Below are positions 28,518 to 40,540 of a stretch of 64,000 bases of DNA, piece by piece. Each line of letters begins with the position of its first letter. The stretch's first letter is position 1. The stretch is from the NCBI RefSeq assembly GCF_900102055.1, contig NZ_FNBA01000002.1:620001-684000 (forward strand), written 5' to 3'. The translations under genes and the position numbers were made by a program. The notes beneath the pieces are model-generated. The model made no database searches. It was not told where the DNA came from and saw nothing but the letters and a program-made list of their open reading frames with translations. Source of the DNA: Ulvibacter litoralis (lineage in GTDB: Bacteria > Bacteroidota > Bacteroidia > Flavobacteriales > Flavobacteriaceae).

Positions 28518-29144
28518 TCACATCAACCCTCCAAAAAACACGTGGCACCCTATAAACGCGATTACAGATAAAATAATACCAATTAAAAAAATATTAAACG
28601 ATTTACGAAGTAACTTAAATTTACGGTCAATCGTTTTTCCTAAATGGTAGGTGTCTTTTGCAATGGTTTTATAAAGCTCGTCACCTTCATTCATTAAGTT
28701 GGTAATACTGTTTACGTATTCATCTTCTTCCATGTCGTGAAAGTTTCCATAAAACATTAAATTTTTGGTTTCTGCTTTTCCATGTACTAATTCTGGGCGG
28801 GTTGCAAAAATAGCAAACGTAATAGATGCTAGATTGGTGAATAATATCATTACTACTGGAAAAATAAGATGAGGATCTGTGTCTAACTGACTCATAACCG
28901 TTCCTATTATTAACGATAAAATTAAGGCATTGATAGAAATCAAAATATTCGATTTTGTATCTATCATTGTATTTAAGGTGTACTGGTTTTTAGACAATAA
29001 CCGAAACAACGTTTCAACACCTCTTTCAGACCTTGGCGAAATTTTTGCCAGTTTCTTTTTTAATTGTTTTAAGGCGTCTTTATCAATATTTAACTCTTTC
29101 ATTAAATAGGTGTCTTCTGCCTTTTCTTTGGATTTATCTCCCAT
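28518..29144 (-). CDS. PycTM/DUF5706 (Pycsar-effector-like) membrane protein
   Basis: A 208-residue protein with a charged N-terminal region, the signature LLSKNQYTLNTMIDTKSN and ISINALILSLIIG of the DUF5706 (PycTM) domain, and three membrane segments (about 65-84, 93-115 and 183-205). In Pycsar defence, proteins with this domain are activated by cyclic CMP or UMP and damage the inner membrane. No pyrimidine cyclase gene is present within this window, and many flavobacterial DUF5706 proteins occur outside defence loci, so a defence role is unproven. A perfect 17-bp palindrome ends 15 bases... upstream of its start codon begins at 29160 and may control expression. Confidence 0.8.
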   Translation of the reverse strand: MGDKSKEKAEDTYLMKELNIDKDALKQLKKKLAKISPRSERGVETLFRLLSKNQYTLNTMIDTKSNILISINALILSLIIGTVMSQLDTDPHLIFPVVMILFTNLASITFAIFATRPELVHGKAETKNLMFYGNFHDMEEDEYVNSITNLMNEGDELYKTIAKDTYHLGKTIDRKFKLLRKSFNIFLIGIILSVIAFIGCHVFFGGLM

Positions 29145-29159
29145 AATTAGATATTTATG

Positions 29160-29200
29160 AATACTGTTTAGTACTCCTGTAGTGAGTACTAAACAGTATT
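29160..29200. repeat. Perfect 17-bp palindrome in front of the DUF5706 gene
   Basis: AATACTGTTTAGTACTC (29160-29176) and its exact complement GAGTACTAAACAGTATT (29184-29200) flank a 7-base loop. It lies 15 bases upstream of the DUF5706 start codon and 34 bases beyond the stop of the preceding gene. There is no T-run on the minus strand, so it is not a typical terminator; an operator, an RNA structure limiting translation, or a mobile palindrome is possible. Confidence 0.85.
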
Positions 29201-29986: not shown

Positions 29987-31597
29987 TTATTTTATTCCTG
30001 CGTAATTGATTCCTGTAAGTTGATGCATTTCGTAGTCGTAAGTAGAAAGATCCTCTTGATTAAATTTCGAGACACTATCATACCCACAAGCACGTGCTAC
30101 GACTCTAATTAAATCGTTGGTTGCTTCAAAGTAATTTTTCAATTGTTTTGCTGAAGCATCTATAATCAATCGACTTCGCAACGATTCTTTTTGAGTTGCA
30201 ATTCCAACAGGACAGTTGTTACTTCCACAAGCGCGCATTCCCAAACAACCAATGGCTTGTAATGCCGAATTGGATACTGCAATGGCATCTGCTCCCAACA
30301 TTAAAGCTTTTGCAAAATCTTCCGCAACGCGTAACCCCCCTGTAATGATTAAAGTTACATCTGTAGCCCCCACTTTATCCATATAGGCTCTTGCTCTTGC
30401 TAATGCCGGAATGGTAGGTACATTGATATGATCTCTTAAAATGGTAGGAGCAGAGCCTGTTCCGCCGCCACGACCATCGAGAATGATATAATCGACCCCC
30501 ACATCGAGTGCAAATTGAATGTCTTTTTCAATATGACTCGCTGCGATTTTAAATCCGATAGGAATTCCGCCCGTATGAGCTCTTACTTTTTCTGAAAAAT
30601 CCTTGAAATCTTGAACCGTATGAAAATTTGGGTTTGCAGCGGGTGAAATTGCAGTTTCCCCTTCTTTAAGTCCGCGAACTGCAGCAATTTCAGCACTTAC
30701 TTTGTTTCCTGGTAGGTGACCACCCGTTCCTGTTTTAGCACCTTGACCGCCTTTAAAATGAAAGGCTTGTACGTTGTCTAATTTATCCCATGAAAAGCCA
30801 AATTGCGCGGATGCTAATTCGTAAAAATATTTGGAATTACTCGCTTGCTCTTCGGGTAACATGCCGCCTTCACCAGAACAAATTCCGGTTCCTGCTAATT
30901 GTGCGCCTTTCGACAAAGCTATTTTTGCTTCCCGCGATAAGGCTCCAAAACTCATATCACTTACAAAAAGAGGGATGTCTAATGCTAATGGTTTCTTTGC
31001 TTTTGGTCCAATCACCACTTTTGTAGCGACTGCTTCATGATCTAATAATGGTCTAGAAGCTAATTGTGCGGGTAAAAACTGAATATCGTTCCATTTGGGA
31101 AGCGTATTCCGATCCACACCCATAGAGGCTGAAAATCCGTGGTGCCCAATGTTTTTAAGACCATTTTGTGCCAATTCTTTTATATACCCTGTGTATGGTT
31201 CTGTTTCTTCAGGATGTGTATCTGCATAGGCACCTAGATACGCATCGCGATTAAACGGCTGCGGATTATTCACTAAATAGGCGTCAATTTCAAAAGCATC
31301 AACCAATAAATTGTCGCCTTCAATTTTAGTAGAGAATTTATGAAGTACTTCTTTATTGTTGTATTCTGAAACACCTGAATCTACCCGGTAATCCCATCCG
31401 TGAACCCCGCAAATAAGATTATGCCCATCTACGTGACCGTCGGACATAAGTGCGCCTCTGTGTAAACATCTTCCGTAGAGCACAGAAATAGCATCATCAA
31501 ATTTGACGATCACTAGATCTAATCCATTTACAAGTGCGTGTTCTGGTTGCTTATTTTCTAAAGTGCTTACTTGAGCGATGACGATTGGTTTTTTCAT
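29987..31597 (-). CDS. Rieske ferredoxin domain fused to an FMN-binding glutamate synthase-like domain
   Basis: A 536-residue protein. Residues 1-105 are a Rieske [2Fe-2S] domain with ligands C44, H46, C63 and H66 (CLHRGAL and CGVHGWDY). Residues about 150-536 match the FMN-binding central domain of glutamate synthase (GltB), with GKIALSKGAQL-type elements, GGQGAKTGTGGHLPG, ILDGRGGGTGSAP and a Cys cluster GMRACGSNNCPVGIAT that binds a 3Fe-4S cluster in GltB. The glutaminase domain is absent, so glutamine-dependent synthesis is not possible. The Rieske domain would deliver electrons to the FMN site. The reaction is not known to me. The hypothetical gene at 29235 follows in the same operon. Confidence 0.88.
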   Translation of the reverse strand: MKKPIVIAQVSTLENKQPEHALVNGLDLVIVKFDDAISVLYGRCLHRGALMSDGHVDGHNLICGVHGWDYRVDSGVSEYNNKEVLHKFSTKIEGDNLLVDAFEIDAYLVNNPQPFNRDAYLGAYADTHPEETEPYTGYIKELAQNGLKNIGHHGFSASMGVDRNTLPKWNDIQFLPAQLASRPLLDHEAVATKVVIGPKAKKPLALDIPLFVSDMSFGALSREAKIALSKGAQLAGTGICSGEGGMLPEEQASNSKYFYELASAQFGFSWDKLDNVQAFHFKGGQGAKTGTGGHLPGNKVSAEIAAVRGLKEGETAISPAANPNFHTVQDFKDFSEKVRAHTGGIPIGFKIAASHIEKDIQFALDVGVDYIILDGRGGGTGSAPTILRDHINVPTIPALARARAYMDKVGATDVTLIITGGLRVAEDFAKALMLGADAIAVSNSALQAIGCLGMRACGSNNCPVGIATQKESLRSRLIIDASAKQLKNYFEATNDLIRVVARACGYDSVSKFNQEDLSTYDYEMHQLTGINYAGIK

Positions 31598-31624: not shown

Positions 31625-34600
31625 TTAATAAGAGAAACCAAGTACAAAAGAGATGATTCCTCCATCGGCACTTGAATAATATCCTGCATTTAGTGTAAAT
31701 GTTTCCAAACCACTAATCCAAAAAGATCCTCCAAGACTATTATGCCACTTGTTAGACGTGTCGTTTTCCAACCAAACTCGACCATAATCAAAGCCTGCTG
31801 TTACACCGTATTTAGTTGGAATAATACCACTGTTAAAATCACCTATTTGCAATCTTAAGTCAGTACTTTGAAACATTGAATAGTTACCTATAAAACGTTC
31901 TTTTCTATATCCGCGAAGGTTTTCTCCTCCTCCTAATTGTGCAGCGTGATACAATTCAAAATCATCTCCAAGAATAGCTTCTCCACCTAATTTTGTTGCA
32001 AATACTAAGCTACCACTTTTATTTAACTTATGATTAATGGCAATATGTGGTTTTATATACCCAAAAGAAGCGTCTTCATTACCGCCATCAATAACTGCCT
32101 TATATCCAAGTGTAATTCCAGCATCTAATCCCATTGTAGGATACGCAAGATCATTTTTATTTTTAAACGTATAGTTTACTTCACTACCTACATAGGTTTG
32201 CTTTTCAAAAAGGGTTGCATTTTCAGGTAAAACATTTACAAATCTATCTACAACGTTTTGAACTTCGAAAGACTCTATTAATGGTTTGAAGTAAAAAGAT
32301 CCTCCATTTTTGCCTCTCCATATTAATGAAACGGCAGCATTCCATTCTCTAATACTGATTCTATTAAAATCGAGTTCTACTTCATCTTTATCATAGTTTG
32401 TTTCGTTTCCGAAGCCAAAGAAATTTTGCGCAAAATTTGGACTTGTATATTTTCCTTCTACACCAAAATTCCATTTATGAAATATATTTGAAAACTCTCC
32501 TTTATAAAACATATCATATCCAGAATTTCCTGTATAATATGCTGCACTAATACTATGTCTATAGGTAAAACCGTTTCGCTGTAATCCGAAGTAAGAAAAA
32601 TTATTTAGAACTCCTAGTTTAACACCATCATCGGGATTTACACCAAATAAAGGTAGTATTTGGCTGAAATTATGTTTAACTTTTTTATGGTCGTAATTGT
32701 TTATTTCATAATCATCAACTAGCCACTTTTTAGATTTTTTATTTACAATGGTATTTTTCTTACTCTTATAATCGTAGAGTTTTACTTTTTTGGTGTTTTT
32801 AAAATCGTAAGTATCGTTTTTCTTTCCACCAACTATTCTTATTTTAATTAGATTATCTCCTTCGCCGTCTACAACAAAAGTATCTTTTCCATCCAGGCCA
32901 TAAACCCAAATTTCTTTGGTAACATCATGAGAAAAAGTTCTGTTTAAAAGTCCTATATCTTTACGGTCAATTTTTATAGAAGTCTCACCATTTGGAAGAC
33001 GTGTGATCGTGAATTTATCGGTCTTTTGAGTTCCAACAATAATTTTGAATTTATTTAAATACTCGTAATACGCTTTTGCTATTTTGACTAGATTAGAGCG
33101 TCTTCCTTTCAGTTTTTCTTTTATTTCATTAATAACTTCTCCTCTTATTTCTGGAGGAAAACCTTCAAAAGCTTTTTCTATATCGTCATCGATAAGATTC
33201 TCTTGGATGTATTGCGCTTGTTTTTCCCATTCTTCCCAACCTGAAGAGTTAATCAGCATTAAATCTAAATGGTATGGAGAAGAAGCTAACCATTTAACAC
33301 TTCTAATTTCTTCATCGTACGACTGCATTTTCCGAAGCGCAGGAATGGAACGGGTTAAAAAAGAAATTAATAATCCATCATATTTTGAAAATGCTTGATC
33401 CCTATCTCTAGGAATAGGCGTACAATAGGCTGTTCCATCTTCATTATCAAAATATGCCCAACGCCATTGGTCTTCATGTCTGTCCCAATCTCCTAAAAGC
33501 ATATCAAACAGTCTAGCTTTGATGTATGATGGTTCATCTACTACAGATTTTCCTGATTTATGAATTTCTTGTAAAATATCGGCTGTACTAAGTATTTTCT
33601 TAGGATTTCCAAAACTTTTTAAACCAACCTGTGTGCTTCCTACATGCTCTTCTATCATGTATAATTCATCACCAAAATCATCATTAAACGTACCTAACGT
33701 TTTTTGCTTCGGAATGTAATACAATACTGGATTAGTATGATTAACTCCTATGGCACTTGATAGTTTCCCAATAGCAAATGCGCCATAAGGGTTTGATGTT
33801 GTATAGAAATCTGACAAAAATTTATCTATAGTTGTATCATCAAGTGAGTTATCTATGTAGGTATCAGGAAAAAGATTTGCTTGTAAAAATTTAGTTGTGC
33901 TTTTTTTTATAGCTCGCATTACAAATTGCTTCCCATTTTTATCTTCCAATCGAAGAGATTTTGATTGTTGACCACCTCCTTTTTTTATAGGAAAAAGTCC
34001 GCCCATTAGCGTATCTAATAATACTACGGGAACATTCACATCTGTACCGTAAAAGTCTCTATAATGCTTTCCCCAAATTGTTTTATAAAAACTACTTTTA
34101 GCTACTGCTTCATTCGTATAGATTGAAGCAGATTGCGTTTTTGGAAATTCCTCTTTGAAGATATTACTAGCTTCAGTATCATTTTCGTCCCCTTTAAAAA
34201 TAGTAGATTTGAAAACTTCCGTAGAAATTCTATTTTCAACAGTATAAAACTTTACCACTACGACACCCTCGTTGCTAATCTCTAACTTTGCATACCCATT
34301 TTGTGCCAAGCCAAAATCACCTTCACTACCATTCCTCACATTTTTAGTTTTTCCAACGGCACCACTAATAATCTGAGGTATGCCTTTATCTATGTATTGC
34401 AAATTTTCATCTTTCCCTGATATAAAAATGATATTACTTGCAGCTTGAGCAATCGTTTTTAATCTGTTTCTCAGTTTTCTATATTCCTTATTCTGAAAGT
34501 CGTCCGAACTAACTCCTCCAACATTACTTAACAAACCTTGTTTGGTGTTTGTTTCAATAGGATGGTGCAATGCGACTAAAATTGTTTTACCGTGGGCCTT

Positions 34601-35155
34601 CTTTATTCTATTTTCAAATTCTAAAAAGAATAAGGTTCTATTTTTAATTTCACTTTCATCATTTATATAACTATCCTCATCCCAATCTTCTAAAAACCAT
34701 TGCGTATCTACTGTAATAAGCACTATGTTTTCAGATAAATCTTTATGTTTTATAGCTTCACCATCGTCAGGATAAAATTTTGAAGTGCTATTTTTTTGAA
34801 TATATTTTTCAATAGATTGAACTCCTTTATATCCATTAATTGCCCATTCATTTTTTCCGGGGATAAAATAAGTTTCGCCAGCAAATAAAGAAAGCTTCTC
34901 TAGTTGGGGTTTAATACTTTTTTTAAAATCTTCTTTCTTATCTTTCCCATTTACTGAGTTACCCAACAACAGTAGTATTGAATTCTCCTTTTTTTCTGAA
35001 TTTTTAACGATTTCATCTAATACTTCGGTATCATTTGTTGTACCTGTATTACCGATTAAGTAAATTGATGTATCATTAGTTTGCCCCAAAACAATGGAAG
35101 CGGTTAGTAAGAAAAAAAATAAAATACTCCTTTTAAGATTTTTTAAACTACTCAT
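31625..35155 (-). CDS. Outer-membrane protein: decayed metallophosphatase, kinase-like region and Omp85-type barrel
   Basis: A 1176-residue protein with a signal peptide ending near VLGQ (residue 25). Residues 30-300 resemble a calcineurin-like phosphatase, but metal ligands are changed: GNTG (35-38) for GDxG, GNS (65-67) for GDN and GKNEW for GNHE; only HHP (197-199) remains. Residues about 390-600 show kinase-like features: a Gly-rich loop GGGQQSK (393-399), a possible ATP-binding Lys in VMRAIKK (412-418), GDWDRHEDQW (555-564) and PRDRDQAF (582-589), similar to HipA/FAM20-type catalytic and metal loops. From about 850 on there is a barrel ending with the Omp85 hallmark ENLRGYRKERF. It is a single-gene unit. 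The kinase reading is my inference. Confidence 0.82.
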   Translation of the reverse strand: MSSLKNLKRSILFFFLLTASIVLGQTNDTSIYLIGNTGTTNDTEVLDEIVKNSEKKENSILLLLGNSVNGKDKKEDFKKSIKPQLEKLSLFAGETYFIPGKNEWAINGYKGVQSIEKYIQKNSTSKFYPDDGEAIKHKDLSENIVLITVDTQWFLEDWDEDSYINDESEIKNRTLFFLEFENRIKKAHGKTILVALHHPIETNTKQGLLSNVGGVSSDDFQNKEYRKLRNRLKTIAQAASNIIFISGKDENLQYIDKGIPQIISGAVGKTKNVRNGSEGDFGLAQNGYAKLEISNEGVVVVKFYTVENRISTEVFKSTIFKGDENDTEASNIFKEEFPKTQSASIYTNEAVAKSSFYKTIWGKHYRDFYGTDVNVPVVLLDTLMGGLFPIKKGGGQQSKSLRLEDKNGKQFVMRAIKKSTTKFLQANLFPDTYIDNSLDDTTIDKFLSDFYTTSNPYGAFAIGKLSSAIGVNHTNPVLYYIPKQKTLGTFNDDFGDELYMIEEHVGSTQVGLKSFGNPKKILSTADILQEIHKSGKSVVDEPSYIKARLFDMLLGDWDRHEDQWRWAYFDNEDGTAYCTPIPRDRDQAFSKYDGLLISFLTRSIPALRKMQSYDEEIRSVKWLASSPYHLDLMLINSSGWEEWEKQAQYIQENLIDDDIEKAFEGFPPEIRGEVINEIKEKLKGRRSNLVKIAKAYYEYLNKFKIIVGTQKTDKFTITRLPNGETSIKIDRKDIGLLNRTFSHDVTKEIWVYGLDGKDTFVVDGEGDNLIKIRIVGGKKNDTYDFKNTKKVKLYDYKSKKNTIVNKKSKKWLVDDYEINNYDHKKVKHNFSQILPLFGVNPDDGVKLGVLNNFSYFGLQRNGFTYRHSISAAYYTGNSGYDMFYKGEFSNIFHKWNFGVEGKYTSPNFAQNFFGFGNETNYDKDEVELDFNRISIREWNAAVSLIWRGKNGGSFYFKPLIESFEVQNVVDRFVNVLPENATLFEKQTYVGSEVNYTFKNKNDLAYPTMGLDAGITLGYKAVIDGGNEDASFGYIKPHIAINHKLNKSGSLVFATKLGGEAILGDDFELYHAAQLGGGENLRGYRKERFIGNYSMFQSTDLRLQIGDFNSGIIPTKYGVTAGFDYGRVWLENDTSNKWHNSLGGSFWISGLETFTLNAGYYSSADGGIISFVLGFSY

Positions 35156-36205: not shown

Positions 36206-39200
36206 ATGCTATCATATATTATCAATTTTAGTTTAAAAAACAAGCTCATTGTTTTTTTATTCACGGCCTTTGTTATAGGAATGGGGCTGTATTCATTAAC
36301 ACAAATTCCTATCGGCGCTGTACCCGATGTTACTAACAATCAGGTGCAAGTAATTACCACATCGCGCAATCTCTCAACGCAGGACATGGAGCAATTTATA
36401 ACCTATCCTGTAGAGCTAGAGATGTCAAACCTGCCTGGTGTTCAGGAAATTCGGTCTATTTCAAAATTTGGCTTATCGGTAGTCACTATCGTCTTTGATG
36501 ATGATATGGGAACTTATCTTCCTCGTCAGCTTATTGCTGAAAAAATTAAATCGGCTTCCGAAAAAATTCCTGAAGGGTTTGGAACACCAGAAATGGGACC
36601 TATTACAACGGGTTTAGGAGAGATTTACCAATATATTTTGGATGTAACGCCAGAATTTAAAGACAACTACGATGCAGGAGATTTAAGAACTATTCAAGAC
36701 TGGGTGGTAAAACGGCAACTCTCGGGTATTCCCGGAGTAGTTGAAGTAAATACTTGGGGTGGATTCTTAAAACAATATGAAGTAGCCATTGACACCGATA
36801 AATTAAACGCAATGAATATCACGGCTAGCGATATTTTTACTGCGTTAGAAATGAATAATAGCATTTCTGGAGGTGGTTATATTGAGAAAGTTAATCAGGC
36901 GTTTTTTATACGAGGGGAAGGACTTATTACTTCTTTTGAAGATATCAATAACATTGTTGTGAAAAACGATAATGGGCTGCCTATCTATATAAAAGATGTC
37001 GCGACTGTTGGCTTCGGAAGTGCTACGCGTTTTGGAGCCATCACGGGGAATGGTGAAGGAGAGAAAGTACTCGGGCAAGTCATGATGCTGAAAGATGCCA
37101 ACTCTAAAAAAGTAATTGATGCTGTAAAAGAACGTGTTGAGCTAATTTCTGAGTCTTTACCTGAAGGTGTTTACATCAACGCCTTTTTAGATAGAAGTGA
37201 ACTCATCGCAAAAACGACGTTTACCGTTTCTGAAAACCTGATTTTAGGGTTCTTGATTGTCATTTTCGTAGTGGTGCTGCTTTTAGGAAACTTACGTTCT
37301 GGACTCATCGTAGCTTCCGTGATTCCATTGTGTTTACTTTTTGCCTTATCGTTGATGTACATTTTTGGGGTGGATGCCAATTTAATGAGTCTTGGTGCGA
37401 TTGACTTTGGGATCATAATTGATGGTGCCGTAATTATAGTAGAATTTATAGCCTTTCAGATTACACAAAAAGCAGATGAGATTAGCGCATTCGCCAAAGC
37501 AGATCAGCAATCTTTCAAGGATAAAATCACCTTTACGGGAGCTTCAAAAATGATGAATTCTGCCATTTTCGGACAACTCATTATATTAATCGTATTTATC
37601 CCAATTTTATCATTATCAGGGGTAGAAGGTAAAATGTTTAAGCCTATGGCATTGACCTTCAGTTTTGCTTTGATAGGCGCCATGATCTTCTGCTTTACGT
37701 ATGTTCCCGTTGCGGCTTCACTTTTCTTAAAACCATCGAAACCTTCAAGCAGAAATATATCGGTTCGTTTGATAAAATGGCTAAATAAAATGTACGCCCC
37801 CGTAATACATTGGGCGTTGATGAGCAAAAGAGTGGTGCTTATCATTGCAGGTTTATTATTAGCTGTTTCTATCTATTTATTTGCAACCATGGGAGGCGAA
37901 TTTGTCCCTACACTTGATGAAGGTGATTTTGTAATTCAGCCAGTCTTAAAAACAGGAACATCTTTAAGTAACACGGTCAAAATTACTACGGAAATAGAAC
38001 AAATATTACTCAGAGAGTTTCCAGAAGTGAAACAAGTAGTCACTCGTATTGGTGCTGCCGAAGTACCTACCGATCCTATGTCTATGGAAGAAAGTGACGT
38101 TATTATCGTGTTAAAGCCAAAAAGCGAATGGACTTCTGCTACTTCCAAAGATGAATTGGCCGATAAGTTTAAAGAAGCACTGTCAATTATACCGGGTATG
38201 GAAGTAGAATTTACACAACCCATCGAAATGCGCTTTAATGAATTAATTACAGGTGTACGCGCAGATATTGCCATTAAAATTTTTGGAGACAATCTCGATA
38301 TTTTGGCGAAGAAAGGAAGTGAGATAGGGGCTTTAATTAAAGACGTACCTGGAGCAGCAGATATTTCAGTAGAGAAAATTGCTGGTTTGCCAGAAATGAA
38401 TGTAAAATTTAATAGAATGAAAATTGCACGATATGGTCTTAACATTCAAGATGTGAATGATATGGTGGCCATGGGATTTGCGGGAAAAACTTCTGGAAGT
38501 GTATTTGAAGGGGAAAAACGTTTTGATTTGGTTGTTCGATTGGACAAAGAAAAGCGACAAGACATTGATAACCTAAAAAATCTATACATCGATTTACCGA
38601 ATGGAGGAAAAATACCATTGAGTGAGCTGGCGGAAATCACCTATCAAAAAGGAGCTGCCAAAATTTCTCGTGATGATACACGACGTAGAATTGTAGTAGG
38701 TATAAACGTGCGTAATCGTGATTTACAGTCTGTAGTGGACGATGTTCAAGAACTAATTAATACGAACGTAAAACTGCCTGTAGGATACACCATTACTTAT
38801 GGCGGACAGTTTGAAAACCTCGAAAGTGCAAAAGCACGATTATTGGTTGCGGTTCCTGTTGCATTGGTATTAATCTTCATCTTATTGTATTTCGCATTCA
38901 ATTCGGTTAAGGAGGCATTGATCATTTATTCAGCGATTCCACTTGCAGCCGTTGGTGGCGTGCTTTTATTGTGGCTACGTGATTTGCCATTTAGTATTTC
39001 CGCAGGCGTTGGATTTATAGCGTTGTTTGGAATTGCTGTCTTAAACGGAATTGTATTAATTGAGCATTTCAAGGAACTTAAAAAAGAGGGCAAATTTGAT
39101 GATATTAATGAGCTTATTAAGCAAGGAACAAAAGACAGGTTACGAGCTGTATTGTTAACTGCAATGGCAGCAGCACTTGGTTTCCTTCCGATGGCTATAT

Positions 39201-40540
39201 CGACCAATGCTGGGGCTGAAGTTCAGCGTCCGTTAGCAACAGTAGTGATTGGAGGCTTGATTACTGCGACTTTGTTAACATTAATCGTGCTACCCGTATT
39301 ATATGCCTATTTCAATAGTCCGAAGAAAGAAAAAAATAGCACGGGTAGTAAGAAGATAGCGAGTATGAGTGTGTTACTCCTGCTGTTTTCAATGAGTGCA
39401 CATGCACAGGAGAAACCATTGAATCTTTCTGAATTAATTCCCTTAGCAATTGAAAATAATGCTGGACTCAGCGGTAACCGATTAAAAGTGGATCAATCGA
39501 ATGCCCTTGTGAATAGTGCTTTTAGTTTTGATAAAACGCAAGTGTATTATGAGTTTGATGAAAACAATTTGGCAACTAATAACGAGCCATTACGTGTATT
39601 CGGAATTCAACAGGATTTTCGATTTCCAACGGTGTATTTTTCAGAAAAAAAACTAAATAAAGCGAACGTTGCCGTTGTTTCTAGTAGCTATGAAATTCAG
39701 AAGAAAACAATAGAACGCAAAGTAACTAATGCCTACTATAACTATCAGATAGCGAAAGAAAAACAGCGAGTTTTAAAGACGTTGGATAGTTTGTACTCAA
39801 GTTTTGCAACAATTGCTGCTAGACGTTTTGAATTAGGGGAAACCAATTATTTAGAGAAGATTACTGCTGCTTCAAAACAAAAACAAATCAATTTAAAATA
39901 TCTTGAGGCTCAACAAAATGTTGCAATCGCTTATGGCGGTTTGGTAAAAGTTGTTCAGCCAAAAGATTCGTTGGTAGTTGCGAAAGAATTTGTATTAAAA
40001 ACACCTCTAAATTCAATGGAGGCAAGAACAAGTGCGGAATTGGATTATTATCAAAATAGAGTTTCGCTATTTCAAGCACAACGTAGTTTTGAGAAGCAAC
40101 AACTCTTACCAGACATCAGTTTCAATTATTTTCAAGGTACTAATTCAGGTCTAAACAATAGTTTGTATGGGTATCAAGTGGGGATAAAGATTCCGCTCTT
40201 ATTTGGTGGACATTCGTCAAGAATTAAAGCCACAGGTATTGCAGAACAAATTGCTGTAGAAGAATCTAAGGAGTATTCGATTCAACTAAACGCAAAATTT
40301 AATGCGCTCAACACACAATTGAATCAATTAAGAACGGCACTTCTGTATTATGAAGAGGAAGGCACTGCATTATCAGACGAGATTTTAAAAACGGCCAACG
40401 GAAGTTTCAGAAATGGAGAAATAGATTTTTACCAATACATACAGAGTTTGGAAAGTGCCTATGAGGTTAAAATAGCCTATCTGGACACATTAAATGAATA
40501 CAATAACATTGTCATTGACATCAATTACTTAACCCTATAA
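36206..40540 (+). CDS. cusA: Heavy-metal efflux RND pump fused to a TolC-type outer-membrane channel (CusA-CusC)
   Basis: A 1444-residue protein. Residues 1-1045 are a complete CusA/CzcA-type RND transporter with twelve membrane helices, the TM4 proton-relay stretch DFGIIIDGAVIIVE and the two periplasmic porter loops (TRIGAAEVPTDPMSMEES near residue 615). After a Lys/Ser-rich linker comes a second signal-like segment (about 1054-1067, MSVLLLLFSMSAHAQ) and a TolC/CusC-type outer-membrane channel domain up to the stop, with two long helical repeats. Fusion of pump and channel is known in Bacteroidota; the internal signal may be cleaved to release the channel. Ions could be Cu/Ag or Co/Zn/Cd; motifs alone do not settle it. 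Confidence 0.92.
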   Translation: MLSYIINFSLKNKLIVFLFTAFVIGMGLYSLTQIPIGAVPDVTNNQVQVITTSRNLSTQDMEQFITYPVELEMSNLPGVQEIRSISKFGLSVVTIVFDDDMGTYLPRQLIAEKIKSASEKIPEGFGTPEMGPITTGLGEIYQYILDVTPEFKDNYDAGDLRTIQDWVVKRQLSGIPGVVEVNTWGGFLKQYEVAIDTDKLNAMNITASDIFTALEMNNSISGGGYIEKVNQAFFIRGEGLITSFEDINNIVVKNDNGLPIYIKDVATVGFGSATRFGAITGNGEGEKVLGQVMMLKDANSKKVIDAVKERVELISESLPEGVYINAFLDRSELIAKTTFTVSENLILGFLIVIFVVVLLLGNLRSGLIVASVIPLCLLFALSLMYIFGVDANLMSLGAIDFGIIIDGAVIIVEFIAFQITQKADEISAFAKADQQSFKDKITFTGASKMMNSAIFGQLIILIVFIPILSLSGVEGKMFKPMALTFSFALIGAMIFCFTYVPVAASLFLKPSKPSSRNISVRLIKWLNKMYAPVIHWALMSKRVVLIIAGLLLAVSIYLFATMGGEFVPTLDEGDFVIQPVLKTGTSLSNTVKITTEIEQILLREFPEVKQVVTRIGAAEVPTDPMSMEESDVIIVLKPKSEWTSATSKDELADKFKEALSIIPGMEVEFTQPIEMRFNELITGVRADIAIKIFGDNLDILAKKGSEIGALIKDVPGAADISVEKIAGLPEMNVKFNRMKIARYGLNIQDVNDMVAMGFAGKTSGSVFEGEKRFDLVVRLDKEKRQDIDNLKNLYIDLPNGGKIPLSELAEITYQKGAAKISRDDTRRRIVVGINVRNRDLQSVVDDVQELINTNVKLPVGYTITYGGQFENLESAKARLLVAVPVALVLIFILLYFAFNSVKEALIIYSAIPLAAVGGVLLLWLRDLPFSISAGVGFIALFGIAVLNGIVLIEHFKELKKEGKFDDINELIKQGTKDRLRAVLLTAMAAALGFLPMAISTNAGAEVQRPLATVVIGGLITATLLTLIVLPVLYAYFNSPKKEKNSTGSKKIASMSVLLLLFSMSAHAQEKPLNLSELIPLAIENNAGLSGNRLKVDQSNALVNSAFSFDKTQVYYEFDENNLATNNEPLRVFGIQQDFRFPTVYFSEKKLNKANVAVVSSSYEIQKKTIERKVTNAYYNYQIAKEKQRVLKTLDSLYSSFATIAARRFELGETNYLEKITAASKQKQINLKYLEAQQNVAIAYGGLVKVVQPKDSLVVAKEFVLKTPLNSMEARTSAELDYYQNRVSLFQAQRSFEKQQLLPDISFNYFQGTNSGLNNSLYGYQVGIKIPLLFGGHSSRIKATGIAEQIAVEESKEYSIQLNAKFNALNTQLNQLRTALLYYEEEGTALSDEILKTANGSFRNGEIDFYQYIQSLESAYEVKIAYLDTLNEYNNIVIDINYLTL

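Follow-up and report, generated by a model that had tools for sequence, protein, structure and literature searches.

A predicted kinase-like domain between a decayed phosphatase and an Omp85-type barrel in Ulvibacter litoralis and its relatives in Bacteroidota

Described relatives and domain layout

Omp85 proteins with a PF00149 domain N-terminal to a barrel without POTRA domains were described as the 'Metallo' subfamily by Heinz and Lithgow in 2014 (PMC4104836), where the domain is called a metalloprotease and the word kinase is absent from the main text. CotH kinases phosphorylate proteins and lose activity in a D228Q variant, and one account calls the source of their adenosine triphosphate (ATP) unanswered (PMC7821199). 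PycTM of Pycsar systems has been described to form pores that span the membrane (PMC11224242). A paper of 2025 that deals with the BAM complex of Bacteroidota uses neither the word kinase nor the word phosphoesterase (PMC12611786). Here we describe an open reading frame (ORF) in a window of 64,000 nucleotides (the whole stretch of DNA analysed) from Ulvibacter litoralis assembly GCF_900102055.1, contig NZ_FNBA01000002.1, positions 620,001 to 684,000. Its 1176-residue product joins a predicted pseudophosphatase, a protein-kinase-like domain and an Omp85-type barrel. A literature search over titles and abstracts, with subscription papers largely outside it, returned no kinase in an Omp85 protein and no tie between such a protein and PycTM. 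The phosphatase-Omp85 frame is known; the kinase, the reciprocal decay of the two halves and the PycTM partner appear to be new in the literature searched.

Like the 'Metallo' proteins, the 1176-residue protein has a phosphatase-type domain N-terminal to a barrel without POTRA domains, and the two are likely the same family. The present copy differs in having lost the phosphatase ligands, all but one, and in carrying a kinase-like domain between phosphatase and barrel. CotH kinases (PF08757) resemble it in fold, in the profile pairing of motif loops and in their extracytoplasmic or coat setting, whereas the 1176-residue protein has no Pfam CotH match, carries an outer-membrane anchor and a phosphatase domain, and shares its genome with a separate CotH gene. 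PI4KII, CtkA, HipA and FAM20 are alike in fold but low in identity (7-15% in the matches listed). The PycTM domain lies in a neighbouring gene, separate from the kinase protein, and is often fused to an HD domain in relatives. The reading we favour, with somewhat more confidence than doubt, is that the protein is an outer-membrane-anchored extracytoplasmic kinase, dedicated to that activity and carrying a pseudophosphatase. Its features, all on the minus strand, are:

31625..35155, minus strand: whole ORF, 1176 residues plus stop, with signal peptide (by eye), predicted pseudophosphatase, kinase-like domain, beta domain and Omp85 barrel
34187..35083, minus strand: purple-acid-phosphatase fold, residues 25-323, from a VIA match to human purple acid phosphatase (PAP) 2bq8 and a ligand count
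33041..34123, minus strand: protein-kinase-like domain, residues ~345-705, from the predicted fold
33947..33988, minus strand: Gly-rich loop, residues 390-403 (GGG 393-395), invariant in 71/71
33899..33931, minus strand: strand at residues 409-419 that holds R414 and the putative ATP-binding lysine, K418, both invariant in 71/71
33458..33499, minus strand: putative catalytic loop, residues 553-566, with D558, invariant in 71/71
33386..33415, minus strand: putative metal loop, residues 581-590, with D584 and D586, invariant in 71/71
32675..33040, minus strand: beta domain between kinase and barrel, residues 706-827, from strands in predicted models
31628..32674, minus strand: Omp85-type barrel, residues ~828-1176, with an RGY motif (R1081 invariant), from VIA and Foldseek matches

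Pfam gave zero matches in any module up to an expect value (E) of 10, and a PDB sequence search with the product returned nothing up to E 10. NCBIfam matched Omp85 weakly, at 58.8 bits where the cut-off is 200. In the PDB, a full-length profile had weak matches to GAP50 (E 2e-4) and to purple acid phosphatase (E 0.017). The full-length AlphaFold model had a predicted local distance difference test score (pLDDT) of 87.4 and a predicted template modelling score (pTM) of 0.84. Its barrel (residues ~828-1174) matched TamA 4n74 with a VIA Z of 25.9 and BamA by Foldseek at E 4.4e-11, and the Omp85 RG(Y/F) motif is present as LRGY, R1081 (alignment position 1057 plus 24) being invariant. Pfam matched no POTRA domain in the protein, whose N-terminal part consists of the PAP, kinase and beta domains. 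The sole further copy in this genome, paralogue L002, has 1234 residues and 41% identity to the 1176-residue protein, and Pfam finds both Metallophos and Omp85 in it.

The predicted kinase-like fold and its probable place in the envelope

From an alignment of 71 sequences, AlphaFold predicted residues 330-850 with a mean pLDDT of 88.0 and a pTM of 0.88, and the model contained kinase lobes. In Foldseek its matches included RIO2 (E 1.9e-5), PI4KII-alpha (3.1e-5), CtkA (7.6e-5), HipA (1.4e-4) and Golgi casein kinase (6.3e-4), which we take to be of the FAM20C family. By VIA the model matched PI4KII-beta with Z 15.2 (250 aligned, 4.2 Å), Bacillus cereus CotH (5jd9) with Z 14.8 (252 aligned, 4.1 Å), CtkA with 13.7, HipA with 11.0, FAM20A with 10.8 and Golgi casein kinase with 10.6; rows within 1 Z unit are ties, and the kinase-fold matches overall align about 250 residues of a predicted model at 4.1-4.4 Å. 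Residues ~345-705 are accordingly modelled with the two-lobed fold of the protein-kinase-like superfamily (CotH/PI4KII/HipA/FAM20). The initial annotation, which had seen in the sequence a kinase-like module, a phosphatase without metal ligands and an Omp85-type barrel, holds up in all three, the lobes having been named as its check in advance. Its residue numbers (GGG 393-395, K418, D558, H560, D584 and D586) agree with the translation.

Conservation of the loops points the same way. Invariant in 71/71 sequences were G393-395, S398, R414, K418, R548, D551, G555, D558, R559, H560, D562, Q563, W564, R565, D584 and D586, as had been expected for D558, H560, D584 and D586. This alignment (A1) held the query and 70 of the best 80 of 578 relatives, and a second (A2) the query and 66, the relatives omitted being fragments or dropped to reduce size; residue numbers in the kinase alignment are alignment positions plus 329. 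Among 204 distinct kinase-bearing ORFs, a set that includes fragments and degenerate copies, K418 was present in 199, D558 in 197, H560 in 189, D584 in 192 and D586 in 194. The exceptions were three fragments ending before the loop, four kinase-degenerate copies and seven ORFs without a phosphatase domain; L167, L172 and L179, each a second copy truncated at the end of its locus, were scored as kinase ORFs without loops. Judged from sequence, the kinase motifs in the 1176-residue protein are more than chance.

Aligned by hhalign against 30 CotH proteins, the 204-row kinase alignment scored 35.1 (P 0.0024), pairing GDWDRH with the SWDDY loop of CotH and PRDRDQAF with PYDYDNSF. Eighteen controls (16 neighbour-gene families, the barrel and the phosphatase) reached at most 25.7, the beta-domain alignment being excluded from them as it overlaps the query; HipA, at 27.3, stood barely above that maximum, and a benchmark of CotH against HipA gave 41.0. 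Sequence-level kinship of the module to CotH is thus weakly supported, and K418, D558, D584 and D586 are putative equivalents of known active-site residues on the basis of motif order and the CotH profile alignment.

Other proteins of kinase fold phosphorylate glycans or transfer adenosine monophosphate (AMP), and the domain might be a transferase of this kind and not a protein kinase, phosphorylating an outer-membrane lipid or glycan (PI4KII-like, FAM20B-like) or transferring AMP. The PI4KII lipid kinases are the top fold match, by a small margin within a tie, and anchoring in the outer membrane would suit a lipid or lipopolysaccharide substrate. We nevertheless consider this unlikely, given that CotH ties PI4KII by fold and is the best profile match among the families tried, PI4KII not being one of them.

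As a rule, surface lipoproteins of Bacteroidota carry acidic residues after the lipobox Cys. A simple pattern, sensitive to the choice of start codon, found a lipobox in 61 of 116 phosphatase-intact, four of seven intermediate and six of 50 decayed proteins, and an acidic residue at +2 to +6 was absent in 52 of the 61 intact ones, which favours the periplasmic face; the N-terminal domains probably lie on that side. The initial annotation had instead proposed a surface enzyme or an export device; the lipoboxes speak against the former, and nothing was found in support of the latter. The same enzyme on the cell surface would recall PlpD, an enzyme-Omp85 fusion whose lipolytic domain is placed on the surface (PMC4104836), and the simple pattern finds no lipobox in the present copy. 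It is quite unlikely in view of the lipoboxes of its relatives and of the PycTM partner described below, which is membrane-bound and whose HD fusions would suggest the cytoplasmic side.

Decay of the phosphatase and of the kinase loops

Residues 25-323 match human PAP 2bq8 with a VIA Z of 27.1 (261 aligned, 2.9 Å) and GAP50 with 25.5. Against the seven-ligand list that we assume for purple acid phosphatases, the 1176-residue protein keeps one of seven and paralogue L002 all seven: the motifs LIGNTG, LLGNSV, PGKNEW, LHHP and GKDEN stand in the former where the latter has LIGDAG, FLGDNIY, PGNHDW, MHHP and GHEHN. The N-terminal domain is therefore a candidate pseudophosphatase. Ligand loss is common to its closest relatives, and in the 168 aligned rows of the tree set all seven ligands were found in 110 and six in four. 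The 34 decayed proteins have N66 and E103 fixed (34/34) and N36 nearly so (32/34), a pattern that marks the decayed state as old and maintained; their mean pairwise identity is 46.6% in the phosphatase domain and 56.3% in the kinase. A sequencing error or recent pseudogene was considered and rejected, since the decayed state is common to many relatives.

K418, D558, D584 and D586 are kept in all 51 proteins with 0-4/9 phosphatase positions, and likewise in all seven with 5-7/9. In a FastTree phylogeny of 195 proteins (126 phosphatase-intact, 69 decayed), inferred with the phosphatase region left out and with many long branches flagged, seven state changes were needed, and at least five were forced by well-supported branches in the decayed group. 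The phosphatase ligands have been lost in several lineages.

The mirror image of this state also occurs. Sixteen proteins of single origin (tree support 100) combine an intact phosphatase with degenerate kinase loops, having lost the full GGG in 16/16, H560 in 16/16, D584 in 15/16 and D586 in 3/16. These 16 passed a strict motif filter; a looser one gave 30, some wrongly. When 299 family genomes were queried with one member, 16 genomes matched at no less than 54% identity; the whole match that followed stood at 49%, and there was one partial match (G487). The genomes span 10 genera, including Ulvibacter, the genus of the window (L239). In 15 of the 16 loci (L230-L245) the degenerate copy has one or two others beside it. 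These number 21, and all score 8/8 for the kinase and 1-5/9 for the phosphatase, on a scale where intact copies read 8 as a gap displaces the Tyr ligand column (GDNIY is visible in all 16); a 569-residue edge fragment in L239 lies outside this count. Fourteen of these loci are same-strand tandems and in L241 the second copy is convergent, while in L240 the degenerate copy stands alone within about 4.7-5.1 kilobases (kb) on each side. None of the 195 proteins is degenerate in both halves, against 5.7 expected if the states were independent, a figure that ignores kinship and so describes and does not test. The mirror-image clade beside kinase-intact copies, together with this lack of doubly degenerate proteins, argues for two separable activities under selection.

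A scaffold that is a pseudoenzyme in both halves and binds partners at the outer membrane would fit a phosphatase half that is dead yet conserved as a fold, as the fixed residues of the decayed proteins show, with GAP50 among its structural matches. GAP50 is a PAP-fold anchor held to be non-enzymatic. This explanation is very unlikely, because the putative kinase active-site residues are all invariant here and several are lost in the kinase-degenerate clade, the contrast expected of a live enzyme.

Module combinations vary among the 204 kinase ORFs: 169 are phosphatase-kinase-beta-barrel, 21 kinase-beta-barrel, three kinase-beta and six kinase alone, with five cut or partial. The kinase-alone proteins (L126, L195, L196, L197, L198 and L199) have 410-430 residues, an N-terminal hydrophobic segment and intact motifs, and in L147 (2051-4913 and onward) kinase-beta, phosphatase and barrel are three separate neighbouring genes. 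In L125 a kinase-beta gene is accompanied by the beginning of a phosphatase gene. Possible pseudokinases were seen among phosphatase-less relatives with broken kinase motifs (L113, L119, L127, L128, L129, L149 and L150). An accessory Omp85-type factor for outer-membrane-protein assembly or translocation, its N-terminal domains handling substrates only, is the most conservative hypothesis for such subfamilies in Heinz and Lithgow (PMC4104836) and would suit the BamA and TamA matches and the invariant RGY motif, but is highly improbable for a protein without a Pfam-matched POTRA domain whose kinase also exists without the barrel or as a separate gene.

A likely PycTM partner and a possible role

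Two of the genes downstream of the kinase gene in the window are:

29987..31597, minus strand: Rieske and glutamate-synthase-like protein, 27 bases downstream of the kinase gene, from a family search
28518..29144, minus strand: short PycTM protein, 208 residues, three genes downstream of the kinase gene (PF18967 E 2.6e-26; PADLOC PycTM 6e-21)

The Rieske/glutamate-synthase-like gene is likely in the same transcript as the kinase gene and lies near it in 12 of 37 other clade loci besides the window. No HD domain was found in the short PycTM protein; PycTM genes near kinase genes mostly carry one in front (PF18967 with PF01966), as does the gene beside the intact paralogue L002. A Pycsar defence system would pair PycTM with a pyrimidine cyclase; no PADLOC defence model matched any of five nearby window proteins, a subset of the ORFs having been scanned and no cyclase sought elsewhere in the genome. 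A stem of 17 pairs with a 7-base loop at 29160-29200 separates a 247-residue gene from that for PycTM and may terminate transcription ahead of the latter; the terminator scan that listed it gave as many sites in shuffled sequence as in the real one.

Across the family the partnership is frequent. Fetched flanks of up to 6 kb contained PycTM at 32 of the 43 loci with an intact phosphatase; it lay directly upstream and divergent in 16/16 mirror-image loci, and within the fetched 12-14 kb in 19 of 20 loci of other taxonomic families, the twentieth (L249) lying on a contig that starts about 2.9 kb before the kinase match. Over 296 genomes, both genes occurred in 93, PycTM only in three, kinase only in 15 and neither in 185 with PycTM counted at about E 1e-27 or better (96 genomes), and in 94, 17, 14 and 171, respectively, at a PycTM cut of 1e-5 (Fisher P 2e-56 and 2e-43, phylogeny ignored). 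Kinase genomes were the 108 of 296 with a match at E 6.8e-41 or better among the matches listed, at most two candidates being scored per genome; weaker kinase-spanning rows (e.g., G067) were excluded, and this set was used because a cut of E 1e-5 admits 128 genomes, in some of which only the barrel matches. The two genes lay within 10 kb of each other in 80 of 94 genomes, and 15 of 36 phosphatase-less kinase matches were within 10 kb of PycTM, so the link can stand without the phosphatase.

Several observations touch the surroundings of these genes. A protein of about 790 residues (L047:1061-3433 and relatives), with no Pfam match up to E 1, is encoded next to HD-PycTM in 24 of 43 intact, eight of 16 mirror-image and six of 20 other-family loci and is a possible third member of the system. 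A gene for what looks by eye like a CRP/FNR-type regulator lies upstream in 15 of 37 clade loci (e.g., L006-L008, L014 and L016). At 36206-40540 in the window, a single chain of 1444 residues has an AcrB-type RND pump (PF00873) at residues 5-1036 and an outer-membrane efflux protein (PF02321) fused to it.

In our judgement, the dedicated outer-membrane kinase best accounts for what was computed: the folds, the conservation, the pattern of decay and the partnership of genes. Its barrel would hold the protein in the outer membrane, and its kinase domain, facing an envelope compartment that is probably the periplasm, would phosphorylate a glycolipid or a protein of the envelope. The N-terminal domain descends from a purple-acid-type phosphatase and would reverse the reaction where intact. 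Paralogue L002 would keep both halves; the present copy, its phosphatase ligands lost, would act as kinase only, with the pseudophosphatase perhaps retained as a dock or regulator. Function would be coupled to the inner-membrane PycTM protein, often HD-fused.

A number of results weigh against this account. The phosphate donor is its weakest step; we know of no ATP supply in the periplasm. Foldseek template modelling scores were modest (target-normalised at most 0.50 among the matches named above, the value for PI4KII, and 0.26-0.32 for HipA), hhalign probabilities were low (12% for CotH, 3.5% for HipA), and a profile of residues 330-850 against the PDB gave chance-level matches only and no kinase. 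Since PDB sequence searches yielded no kinase, the case for one is built on the predicted fold, on conservation and on a weak resemblance between profiles. Kinase motifs are broken in seven of 30 phosphatase-less ORFs, and the mirror-image copies retain D558 in 16/16 and D586 in 13/16, so that their loss of kinase activity is something we infer. PycTM is a neighbour in only five of 38 loci of this clade, window included, which leaves the partnership at this particular gene suggestive only.

Possible as well, though here we lean towards doubt, is a trans-envelope phospho-signalling system widespread in Bacteroidota. The outer-membrane kinase/phosphatase would work with an HD-PycTM protein of the inner membrane, which would hydrolyse, release or sense nucleotides and so bring the donor or a signal to the periplasm, decay having parted the activities into dedicated kinases and phosphatases. 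The nucleotide step is based on the description of PycTM as a pore (PMC11224242). If this were true, PycTM would be a long-standing partner with a housekeeping role, and the name 'Pycsar effector' would be wrong for many of the chromosomal genes so called in Bacteroidota.

In diderm bacteria, to our knowledge, little has been learned about reversible phosphorylation beyond the cytoplasm, and where the phosphate comes from is an open question. In the family described here, a single outer-membrane protein would hold both a kinase and a phosphatase, and some genomes would carry natural versions with one activity each next to one another. The analysis gives a likely activity, predicted from sequence and models, to the Pfam-blank region of an Omp85 subfamily, and it offers an alternative reading for chromosomal PycTM genes in one phylum.

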